Of a stretch of 64,000 bases of DNA, positions 60,945 through 64,000 are shown in pieces; the first letter of the stretch is position 1, and every line of letters starts with the position of its first letter. The position numbers and the translations under genes are program-made. This stretch comes from Candidatus Saccharimonadota bacterium (GTDB lineage Bacteria > Patescibacteriota > Saccharimonadia > Saccharimonadales > Saccharimonadaceae): NCBI GenBank assembly GCA_017511925.1, contig JAFWHS010000014.1, positions 62,001-126,000 of the forward strand. Reading direction: 5' to 3'. Under the pieces are notes generated by a model. It did not search any database. It saw nothing but the letters and a program-made list of their open reading frames with translations, and had not been told where the DNA came from.

Positions 60945-60950
60945 TATAAT
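60945..60950 (+). promoter_or_regulatory. Candidate promoter (-10) of the DGR template RNA
   Basis: A plus-strand TATAAT at 60945-60950 would start a transcript near 60957, leading into the structured leader and the template repeat. A second AT-rich box (TAATAT, about 60955-60960) overlaps. No good -35 is visible; the call depends on the -10 box and on the context. Confidence 0.5.
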
Positions 60951-60956
60951 AAAATA

Positions 60957-61400
60957 ATATAGGGGGTAGTTGTCGTGGGCAACCGCCACTTAGGAGCCGG
61001 GCCAAATAGAAAGTCATCGTCAACGGCGCTCGCTCGTACGACAACTTTTTACAAAGAGTTGGGTAGGTCCACTATCGCAACAAAAGTTGCCAGAGTCCTT
61101 AGCGCTACCACTTTCGCGGAAGTGAATAGACTTTAGCGGCCTACACATCCCCTGCGGTTGGTCCGGTCCGGCAACGTGAACGATGGCTCCCTTAACAACG
61201 CAGGGTACAACGGCAACTACTGGTCTAGTACGGTCAACAATGCTAACAACGCTTACAACCTGAACTTCCGTAGTGATAACGTTAACCCTGCCAACAACAA
61301 CAACAGGAACAACGGAAGGTCAGTGCGCTGCGTCTCTGAGTACTAGTTTGGCTCGTAGCGCTCTTCGTCGCCGGCTTTCCCCCGCAACTCTTTCCCCCCC
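60957..61400 (+). ncRNA. Putative DGR template RNA with structured leader
   Basis: No protein gene fits 60916-61157. The plus-strand RNA can form a 9-bp stem AGTTGTCGT / ACGACAACT (60968-60976 with 61038-61046), a GCAAC-AAAA-GTTGC hairpin (61077-61090) and a CACTT / AAGTG hairpin (61109-61124) before the template repeat. AAAGAGTTG (61053-61061) pairs with CAACTCTTT (61385-61393), extended by GG/CC across one bulged G, which would close the entire repeat into one domain. In characterised DGRs a structured TR RNA is the template bound by RT and Avd. Ends are estimates; the T5 run at 61046-61050 could instead terminate a short RNA. Confidence 0.6.
61158..61393 (+). repeat. DGR template repeat (TR)
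   Basis: This 236-bp unit matches 63445-63680 in inverted orientation. The first 189 bp read as an open frame of 62 codons ending in TAG and contain 19 AAC codons; the last 47 bp are non-coding. Compared with VR there are 20 mismatches, 19 of them at TR adenines (one G-to-A at codon 35). AAC codons mutate at first and second positions only, giving Tyr, Ser, Val, His and Gly in VR, the known DGR scheme that avoids stop codons. It has no start signal of its own and is not considered a gene. Confidence 0.93.
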
Positions 61401-61414
61401 ACCAAAATCAAAAA

Positions 61415-62581
61415 TCAAATTCTAAAATCCCACCCCATTTCCTCAAACACCGTACGAATATAATTGCTCGCATCAAGGTGTGTCATGATCCCCATATATG
61501 ACACAATCGTTTCAATATTCTTAAATCCTTGCGTCATCTCAAGCGCCGCTCGGCGAAAATTTTTTTGTAGTCTATCACTCGGATATAAACAATGCGGATA
61601 TACCCGCGCGCCCAAAAAACTCATACCTTTTTTCACATTCTGATAATATCGCTTTTTCTTGTGCATAATCAACCCAAGCTCCTCCCTCAAATACTTCTCT
61701 ATCACCGCCACATCTTCCTTAGCTTGCGAATATTGTTCTTCCGGCACCATGATATAAAAATCGTCCACATATCGTCCATAATATTTATAACCCAAATCAA
61801 AATAAATAAATCTATCTAGTTGCCCAAGATAGATATTGGATACTAATTGCGAAGTTAAATTTCCAATCACCACGCCATATCCTGGTTCTTGCGTAAAAAG
61901 ACTCTTTTCTGGCGGTAATACCGCAGGGTTCCAATTATCACGCGGCCCCCGTTTCCAAGCTTTACTTGCCGGATCGTCAAAAATGATCATCCTCCACAAA
62001 TAATCACAAATCTTATATATTTTATATCCCACCGGATCATCAATTACATCCGCAAATTGCCGATCGAGTCCCCATTTAATCCGCTCATATAACTTTTGCC
62101 TCGGCAAACTCATAAAATACCCTCTGATATCTAGTTTTATTACATATGCTTCCTTTGTAAAATTCTCCGACGCTCGCCACATCATCTTTTGCGCGCGCTG
62201 TATACCAAATAATGTACCCTTACCCACCCTGCAAGAATACGAATCATATAAAAATCGCCGGTCCCACCATCCGGCTTGCATATTATATAAGAAATGATGT
62301 ATCACTCTGTCGCGAAATGGTGCGGCAAAGATTTCCCTTACCATCGGCTTAAAAATCACAAATGCCACACTCGGACTTGGTTCATAACGCCGCTCCACCA
62401 CAGCGTCTCTGAGCAAAATTATATTTTTTATCCAATTTTGTTCAAAATGATGTTCATCGTATGTCTTAAGCTTACCTTTTCTAGCGTCTTCAAAAGCCCG
62501 CGTCAACTCATCTAAGAGCCACTGTCGAATGCCTACTTGCTTAACCTTTTCTACGGCTTTTTCTAACTCTATCGGCTTCAC
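61415..62581 (-). CDS. DGR reverse transcriptase
   Basis: The 388-residue protein is a compact group-II-like reverse transcriptase: the palm motif A aspartate D151 in KLDIRGYFMSLP, the IGNLTSQ motif (239-245) typical of DGR/retron enzymes, and the catalytic YVDD (271-274), followed by a short thumb (~300-388). No maturase or endonuclease domain is present, as expected for DGR enzymes. It copies TR RNA with errors at adenines; the cDNA replaces VR in the target gene. It overlaps the accessory gene by 41 nt and runs towards TR, which is on the other strand and ends 22 bp away. Confidence 0.93.
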   Translation of the reverse strand: MKPIELEKAVEKVKQVGIRQWLLDELTRAFEDARKGKLKTYDEHHFEQNWIKNIILLRDAVVERRYEPSPSVAFVIFKPMVREIFAAPFRDRVIHHFLYNMQAGWWDRRFLYDSYSCRVGKGTLFGIQRAQKMMWRASENFTKEAYVIKLDIRGYFMSLPRQKLYERIKWGLDRQFADVIDDPVGYKIYKICDYLWRMIIFDDPASKAWKRGPRDNWNPAVLPPEKSLFTQEPGYGVVIGNLTSQLVSNIYLGQLDRFIYFDLGYKYYGRYVDDFYIMVPEEQYSQAKEDVAVIEKYLREELGLIMHKKKRYYQNVKKGMSFLGARVYPHCLYPSDRLQKNFRRAALEMTQGFKNIETIVSYMGIMTHLDASNYIRTVFEEMGWDFRI

Positions 62582-63386
62582 GTTTTATGTGCCCTTCTAT
62601 TCTATTTTCCATAAACACTACCTGCTCCCCCACCTTCACGCAAGACTCTCTCGTCCATAACTTAAGCCCCGCCAAAATCTGCAATTCTATCAAAAGATCG
62701 TGCGTATTTCTTCGCATAACTTTCCAATCAGCCAACAATACCTCCGGCGGTGCATTTAGCGTCTCAGACATTCTATAATAATCTCTAATTAATACATCGC
62801 AAAGCTCTACTATCCTACGACCATTAGTCGCGCTAGATAGCTTGTCCAATCTTCTAAAACATATCCTATGCAACCTCGTCGCTACCTCAATCATTTTTTG
62901 ATGCAAAACCGGATCTGCAAAAGTTACCTTTACTATACTATTTAACGCCGCCTGATGCTCTTCTTCCTTTTGCCGCATCAATGCCAATTCTTTATTAGTG
63001 AATTGATGATTTAACTGAAAAATCACCGAACGGTCTTTCAAAGTTTCTTTTTCATACAAGCCGGCCTTTTCTAGCCGTCGTCGCACTACGCTAAACCCCC
63101 TCGTACGAATTCTTCCCATTTTGTATTGGATGTAGAAGCTATCGAGATCGTCCGTCATCGACACGGCGATCCCAAGCTTCTCACACACCGCATATTTATA
63201 TATCAATGCAGAATTATCACTCATTTCGCACCAGTCATTTTCGCCATCACACGGGATGACCAAAACATACTGAGCATTTTTGCTCTCAAATTTTATTGCC
63301 CGCCGCTTTAGTTTGTCGTATTCTTTTCTATCTACTTTACCAATCGTATCGAGGCGCGCCAAATCATCTGTACTACTTTTCTCCAC
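62541..63386 (-). CDS. DGR accessory protein: Avd-like C-terminal bundle with extra N-terminal domain
   Basis: The C-terminal ~115 residues (about 165-281) form four amphipathic helices of the Avd/four-helix-bundle type (LHQKMIEVATRLHRICFRRL, GRRIVELCDVLIRDYY, HDLLIELQILAGLKLW, KVGEQVVFMENRI), basic as needed for RNA binding. Avd forms a pentamer that binds RT and TR RNA. Residues 1-~150 are an additional domain with mixed helices and strands (YVLVIPCDGENDWCE, GIAVSMTDDLDSFYIQYKMGRIR) that I cannot assign. The start is GTG 63386, 6 nt after TATAAT (63393-63398), so accessory gene and RT have their own leaderless promoter. Confidence 0.78.
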   Translation of the reverse strand: MEKSSTDDLARLDTIGKVDRKEYDKLKRRAIKFESKNAQYVLVIPCDGENDWCEMSDNSALIYKYAVCEKLGIAVSMTDDLDSFYIQYKMGRIRTRGFSVVRRRLEKAGLYEKETLKDRSVIFQLNHQFTNKELALMRQKEEEHQAALNSIVKVTFADPVLHQKMIEVATRLHRICFRRLDKLSSATNGRRIVELCDVLIRDYYRMSETLNAPPEVLLADWKVMRRNTHDLLIELQILAGLKLWTRESCVKVGEQVVFMENRIEGHIKREADRVRKSRRKG

Positions 63387-63392
63387 TATTCT

Positions 63393-63398
63393 ATTATA
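63393..63398 (-). promoter_or_regulatory. -10 box of the DGR accessory-RT operon
   Basis: Minus-strand TATAAT ending 6 nt before the GTG start of the accessory gene, in the gap after the variable repeat tail. It allows RT expression apart from the target gene. Confidence 0.65.
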
Positions 63399-63444
63399 TC
63401 TTATTTTTACATTTTGCTCATGTTTTTCTATTTATCGTCTCGAC

Positions 63445-63680
63445 AAAGAGTTGCGGGGGAAAGCCGGCGACGAAGAGCGCTACGAGCCAAACTAGTACTC
63501 AGAGACGCAGCGCACTGACCACCCGACGCTCCTGCTGCCGTTGTTGGCAGGGTTAACGTTATCACTACGGAAGTATAGGTAGTAAGCGACGTTAGCATTG
63601 CTGACCGTACTAGACCAGTAGTAGCCGTAGTACCCTGCGTAGTTAAGGGAGCCATCGACCACGTGGCCGGACCGGACCAA
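63445..63680 (-). repeat. DGR variable repeat (VR) with 3' homing tail
   Basis: On the minus strand, VR covers the last 62 codons of the target gene (63492-63680) plus a 47-bp tail after the stop (63445-63491) that is identical to the TR tail. Fifteen codons carry adenine substitutions relative to TR; fourteen of them change the amino acid. The perfect 3' part is the expected place for the initiation-of-mutagenic-homing (IMH) sequence. Confidence 0.93.
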
Positions 63681-64000
63681 GTAAAGAGGGCTTTGGACTA
63701 GCTTATTACCGTTACCAGTATTGCCACCATTATATACATTGTTTAGCCTAGCGAACTCACTCTTGGCGGCTACACTAGATACTGTAGGGAGTCTCCAGCC
63801 TTTAGGGCAAATGGAGTTCTGGGGGTTATTGGCTACGTTATTGTAGGTGCTGGTATTATACCCACCGGAAGCATTGGAGGCTATAGCTGCGCTCCAGTTG
63901 TAGTAGTTACCAATTTTTCCGTGATTACCGTTACCGGTAAAGGCATTGTGGCTAAAGTAAGTAGGAGCTACGGTATTGTTTGCGTTAAGGTAGTTACAGG
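63492..64000 (-). CDS. DGR target protein, C-terminal part with C-type-lectin/FGE-like variable domain (runs off window)
   Basis: The frame is open from the window edge to the TAG at 63492, so the last ~169 residues are seen. They contain SICPKGWRLPT and YYWSST, ending in a W-S-V-R-C-V segment, the signature of the Fibrobacter-type paralogous/DUF1566-like C-type lectin fold used by many DGR targets. The VR gives variable residues Tyr, Val, Ser, His, Gly and Trp on the presumed ligand face. The conserved frame (WSST, FRSDNVNP, SVRCVSEY) is untouched. The two cysteines (ICP and RCV) may pair. Its N terminus, and therefore its signal peptide or anchor, lies outside. A surface adhesin role is inference. 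Confidence 0.9.
   Translation of the reverse strand, partial: CNYLNANNTVAPTYFSHNAFTGNGNHGKIGNYYNWSAAIASNASGGYNTSTYNNVANNPQNSICPKGWRLPTVSSVAAKSEFARLNNVYNGGNTGNGNKLVQSPLYLVRSGHVVDGSLNYAGYYGYYWSSTVSNANVAYYLYFRSDNVNPANNGSRSVGWSVRCVSEY

Follow-up and report, generated by a model that had tools for sequence, protein, structure and literature searches.

How a diversity-generating retroelement (DGR) could start cDNA synthesis when its template repeat (TR) lies on the strand opposite its reverse transcriptase (RT) is the question raised by a locus at the end of a 64,000-nucleotide stretch of contig JAFWHS010000014.1 (hereafter, the window), which is part of an 832-kb MAG of 24 contigs. To our knowledge, nearly all that is known of the DGR mechanism comes from BPP-1, with its primer 3' of the TR, and BPP-1 is the only DGR whose RNA has been worked out experimentally. 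There, cDNA is primed from an internal adenine of a folded spacer that lies 3' of the TR and recruits bRT-Avd (PMC12875486). In the present element, termed DGR1, the TR lies on the strand opposite the RT, end to end with it, and the gap between the TR end and the RT stop codon is 21 nt, which leaves no room for a BPP-1-type 3' spacer.

A cellular DGR with a reversed template repeat

DGR1 is a genuine, cellular DGR of Saccharibacteria, whose parts are collected in Table 1. The initial annotation had described a complete-looking DGR, comprising an RT with YVDD and IGNLTSQ, an Avd-like accessory protein, a TR, a variable repeat (VR), and a target. All of these parts were present where it had placed them, RYVDD and IGNLTSQ were found in the 388-aa RT, and the DGR identity was upheld by A-specific TR/VR differences, a DGR-type RT, an Avd fold, and a FISUMP/Lcl_C-like target C-terminus. 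The RT, accessory, and target frames are all open. The description as complete-looking held for the parts, except that the target gene extends beyond the window, being complete (573 aa) in the contig. While the reading as a DGR stood, the strand and RNA architecture were absent from it, namely the TR opposite the RT, a leader at ~60958-61157, and an accessory protein of twice the size of Avd.

Table 1. Positions of the DGR1 features in the window
Feature	Position	Strand	Details
Candidate -10 element of a putative separate TR RNA promoter	60945..60955	+	TATAAT/TAAAAT, from sequence
5' leader of the TR RNA	60958..61157	+	~200 nt
Helix P1 in the leader	60969-60976 (GTTGTCGT) with 61038-61045 (ACGACAAC)	+	
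Leader strand AAAGAGTTG of the proposed primer duplex	61053..61061	+	Complementary to the TR end, 61385-61393
Nucleotides following the primer strand, GGTAGGTCCACT	61062..61073	+	Counterpart of conserved motif AGRRRYNCNCTT, assigned by eye
Candidate priming adenine	near 61065	+	Placed from BPP-1 geometry
TR	61158..61393	+	Mutable part 61158-61346; IMH-like 3' part 61347-61393
TR end, CAACTCTTT	61385-61393	+	Last letters of the IMH-like part
DGR reverse transcriptase, 388 aa	61415..62581	-	
Accessory protein, 281 aa	62541..63386	-	N-terminal alpha/beta domain (~residues 20-125) and C-terminal Avd four-helix bundle (155-278)
VR	63445..63680	-	Coding part 63492-63680; 3' junction 63445-63491 identical to TR
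Target gene, C-terminal part	63492..64000	-	Whole gene 573 aa, L011:7493-9214, runs beyond the window

The TR and the VR form an inverted pair of 236 nt that is 92% complementary. Of the 236 positions, 20 differ between the two, and the TR has an adenine at 19 of these (A>G, 9; A>T, 9; A>C, 1; G>A, 1), and this adenine bias is far beyond chance (Fisher p = 1.2e-10 over the coding 189 nt). Because the differences sit at the adenines of the + strand copy, this copy is the TR and the RNA is that of the + strand. The presence of just one non-A difference in 236 nt suggests recent homing.

Among PDB sequences, the sole match to the RT was BPP-1 bRT (8ub7, E 3.9e-27). Its nearest records were Candidatus Saccharibacteria MAGs, several of them from sheep or goat gut, and no close RT relatives were found in viral contigs. 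These neighbours, together with the 832-kb genome, agree with the small host-dependent cell that had been envisaged for the element. As a separate observation, at least one DGR-type RT gene was seen in 48 genomes of the genus (an order-level sample), many of these genes lying near contig ends, and genomes G391, G424, G062, and G374, as well as others of the genus, contain up to four such genes per ~700 kb genome.

The position of the TR was compared across 106 distinct loci whose RTs are related to that of DGR1; nearly all of these loci belong to the same family or order, and TR/VR pairs were detectable in 87. The TR lay downstream of the RT on the other strand in 73 of these 87 loci and downstream on the same strand, at ~180-235 nt, in five; it was upstream of the RT on the same strand in six and on the opposite strand in three. 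The distance between the TR end and the RT stop ranged from overlap to >1.5 kb. In the RT tree, 73 of 76 reversed-TR loci fell in one 80-member clade (SH-aLRT 100), indicating that the inversion is old and stable. In all 51 of the BPP-1-type phage loci, the TR and RT shared a strand and the spacer measured 120-165 nt, and 34 of the 39 loci in a wider Patescibacteria sample had the TR upstream on the RT strand. An extended -10 element (TGNTAWAAT) was present 5' of the TR in 26 of 72 related loci, versus 16 on the other strand and five in RT antisense, and was not seen in this form in the DGR1 locus. These counts, with the candidate element in Table 1, hint at a separate promoter for the TR RNA.

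Complementarity between the leader and the TR end

One strand of the leader is complementary to the final nucleotides of the TR, and both sides co-change in the closest relatives, the leader/TR-end pairs being AAAGAGTTG/CAACTCTTT, AGGGGCATT/AATGCCCCT, AAGGGGTAT/ATACCCCTT, and AGAGAACTG/CAGTTCTCT. Helix P1 is likewise altered in sequence yet still complementary in these relatives. An unrestricted duplex search was confounded by bulges and was dropped; instead, we adopted ungapped helices and a cross-locus permutation, in which the best ungapped helix between a leader and its own TR end was compared with those formed with the TR ends of other loci, permuted across loci. The pairing was locus-specific across 72-86 loci. 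The own-locus helix between leader and TR end gave z = 11.5 (0/10,000 permutations), and the same permutation test for own-locus pairing with the 3' flank of the TR gave z = 0.6. Independence of the loci, which are in fact related, is assumed in the permutation; related loci with similar helices make the test stricter, not looser.

The nucleotides just after the helix strand share a common motif, AGRRRYNCNCTT, across loci. When the search was anchored on the best match to this motif and only the 23 adjoining nt were tested, z was 16 (0/10,000 permutations, 72 loci), and in the subset with the VR >1 kb away, where hairpins beside the VR cannot contribute, it was 15.3. Watson-Crick runs of at least 8 occurred in 22 of the 72 loci, versus 0.7% between loci, and runs of at least 6 occurred in 39 loci, with 36 different helix sequences; about half of the loci had no Watson-Crick run of at least 6 at the anchored place. 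When the tested segment was moved along the TR, the signal peaked sharply between -6 and -2 nt, counted from where TR/VR homology ends, and was about zero elsewhere in the TR. Since the TR end is set only by similarity to the VR, this peak ties the helix to the retrohoming boundary.

A 5' signal was also present in the wider Patescibacteria (39 DGRs; 5' z = 5.9 versus 3' z = 1.1) and in phage DGRs related by RT (n = 62; 5' z = 4.9 versus 3' z = 0.2). The tail range for these wider sets was -10 to +14; it had initially been -14 to +3, under which the wider Patescibacteria reached only p = 0.06, and was then widened. The 5' pairing therefore extends beyond the reversed-TR loci, and it is the reversal that is special to the Saccharibacteria clade. 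In one group of phage DGRs (L367, L371, L372, L375, L379, L382, L387, L389, L393, L395, L397, and L402), a leader element TTGAATCTG, or a close variant, was observed ~140 nt 5' of the TR and is complementary to the TR end CAGATTCAA.

Several other approaches gave null results. Minimum-energy folding of the single DGR1 RNA did not choose the leader/TR-end helix, an automatic motif scan across loci missed DGR1 itself, an Rfam scan of the leader and TR returned no match, and RNAalifold yielded no consensus on a MAFFT alignment of ten leaders, which was too poor. BPP-1-type phages, tried as a positive control for the 3' helix, were uninformative because close relatives share the pairing.

Accessory protein, target, and a second DGR

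The accessory protein was modelled by AlphaFold on a 33-sequence alignment (pLDDT 93). In keeping with its earlier assignment as Avd-like, its C-terminal part superposed on Avd 4dwl (Z 14.9, rmsd 1.5, 109/110 aligned), and residues 155-278 also matched the DGR ribonucleoprotein entries, among them 8ub8 (Z 14.5); searches of Pfam, PHROGs, PADLOC, and PDB sequences returned nothing firm. The N-terminal domain, when modelled alone (pLDDT 91), had as its best fold match MSH3 in human MutS-beta (8rb2, chain residues 230-335), with a weak Z of 5.0 that was tied with the unrelated GFRP. Against the MutS domain I profile, hhalign gave a probability of 17.5% and a score of 23, versus at most 14 for shuffled columns, in a colinear alignment that sets a WCEM segment over MutS FYEL. 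The Saccharibacteria clade has this domain, which was absent from the other Patescibacteria and phage loci searched, and none of 40 genomes of the genus contained a MutS_I match above cut-off. We treat the weak, model-based likeness to MutS domain I as a lead and not as a finding. A sub-cut-off Pfam MutS_I match on the accessory gene of a second DGR (see below) is no evidence alone, because similar chance matches occur in many Patescibacteria genomes.

A C-type-lectin fold, as named for the target in the initial annotation, is a candidate assignment: the target C-terminus scored 33.8 bits with Fib_succ_major (the Pfam FISUMP domain), just below the cut-off of 33.9, and 20.4 with Lcl_C, below the cut-off of 34.9. 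The target is probably a secreted FISUMP-type protein, and it likely has a role at the surface. On the same contig, outside the window, lies a second element, DGR2 (L012:5940-10029; contig C24:203939-208028), whose RT is 51% identical to that of DGR1. Its accessory gene and RT are on the + strand and its TR and target on the - strand, the TR thus being antisense to the RT, and 28 of its 29 TR/VR differences are at TR adenines. In addition to the DGR2 target, the genome contains seven further, scattered FISUMP paralogs (L013, L014, L015, L016, L017, L018, and L019). Four paralogs were aligned with the DGR1 TR; two of them, C4 and C21a, showed A-biased differences (p = 2e-7 and 2e-6, respectively), and the bias was weak in the other two. 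Because the segment after the stop codon that is common to the TR and the cis VR is missing from all four, and an IMH at this segment is required in BPP-1 (PMC3240598), these paralogs are probably former, not present, targets.

Proposed priming from the leader and competing readings

Taken as a whole, the locus is best explained as a reversed-TR DGR with a 5' leader that primes cDNA, followed by adenine mutagenesis and VR replacement, and we consider this explanation probable. Counting against it are the minimum-energy fold, the motif scan that missed DGR1, the loci lacking a Watson-Crick run of at least 6, and the weak promoter signal. The RT and the Avd-containing accessory protein would act on an RNA that is transcribed convergently to the RT and consists of a structured 5' leader and then the TR. 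The leader would pair with the last TR nucleotides, so that the 3' end of the template adjoins a leader nucleotide, which would prime cDNA, probably via its 2'-OH as described for BPP-1. The RT would then make errors at adenines while copying the TR, and the resulting mutated cDNA would replace the VR, whose 3' junction would retain the same end sequence. The outcome would be repeated rewriting of the C-terminal part of the probably secreted FISUMP protein. While the pairing was established by permutation, it is its geometry that suggests cDNA priming from the 5' leader, in a retron-like topology; RNA-protein assembly and current activity are presumed parts of the mechanism. In BPP-1, the same helix search found Sp 48-54 paired with TR 123-129, directly before A56, which we take to be the internal priming adenine, and for this reason we propose that DGR1 would use the same initiation duplex in permuted order.

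Paired ends are common in structured RNAs, and the leader pairing might stabilise the RNA, form an end-to-end closing stem, or act in regulation, in an ordinary BPP-1-like RNA that still uses a primer spacer 3' of the TR, antisense to the 3' end of the RT. Such a placement has its precedent in the BPP-1 spacer (PMC12875486), but we judge it unlikely here, given that (i) own-locus pairing with the 3' flank was absent (z 0.6), (ii) the TR end to RT stop distance varies from overlap to >1.5 kb, and (iii) the helix stops exactly where TR/VR homology ends. That the element has decayed, with the TR, RT, and VR as relics of homing that has ended, would fit the several FISUMP paralogs elsewhere that have drifted from the TR; the open RT, accessory, and target frames and the single non-A difference between the TR and the cis VR in 236 nt make it very improbable. 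A far-reaching extension of the leader-primed reading, which we offer tentatively and with some doubt, is that many DGRs of Patescibacteria and some phages would have the primer 5' of the TR, retron-like and permuted relative to BPP-1; that TR inversion would thus have been freed in host-associated Saccharibacteria; and that Avd would have gained a MutS domain I-like mismatch-binding module for the mutated cDNA/target heteroduplex in MutS-less cells.

DGR1 resembles BPP-1 (bRT, Avd, TR, Sp, mtd) in its RT family, Avd fold, and A-specific TR-to-VR change, as well as in a short duplex of a flanking RNA strand with the 3' part of the TR. It departs from the BPP-1-type architecture, where the TR is on the RT strand and a 144-nt primer spacer lies between TR and RT, in that its TR is opposite to the RT and its pairing strand is 5' of the TR; moreover, BPP-1 Avd lacks the extra N-terminal domain. 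With the CPR (Patescibacteria) DGRs, clade 2 of Roux et al. 2021 (PMC8144416), it has in common the host group, multiple targets, and targets without recognised anchors; the wider Patescibacteria loci share the 5' pairing, whereas the reversed TR belongs to the Saccharibacteria clade. The inverted DGRs of DiGReF (PMC3521204) and cassette G5 of Yan et al. 2019 (PMC6642488) also have RT and TR on opposite strands, but their VR and target go with the TR, a layout (TR, VR, and target opposite the RT) that fits DGR2, whereas in DGR1 the VR and target go with the RT and only the TR is reversed. In retrons, too, a 5' primer domain precedes the template, and the 3' end of the template folds back to pair with the 5' part; however, DGR1 does not combine a retron RT with an msr-msd RNA, its RT belonging with those of DGRs and acting with adenine mutagenesis and a VR target, and the similarity is one of RNA topology alone.

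CPR DGRs, inverted layouts, and multiple VRs were already known (PMC8144416, PMC6642488, PMC3521204). The literature searched, which did not extend to recent work on the BPP-1 ribonucleoprotein structure, described no 5' primer element or reversed-TR Saccharibacteria clade, and the novelty of both is provisional. If priming from the 5' leader is true, the RNA would be a self-contained unit free to occupy any position and either strand, seemingly broken layouts would be explained, and the practice of TR search and expression would change. Directed protein evolution would also gain a compact template that can be expressed separately, and there would be a testable explanation for the persistence of several DGRs in episymbionts whose genomes are very small.
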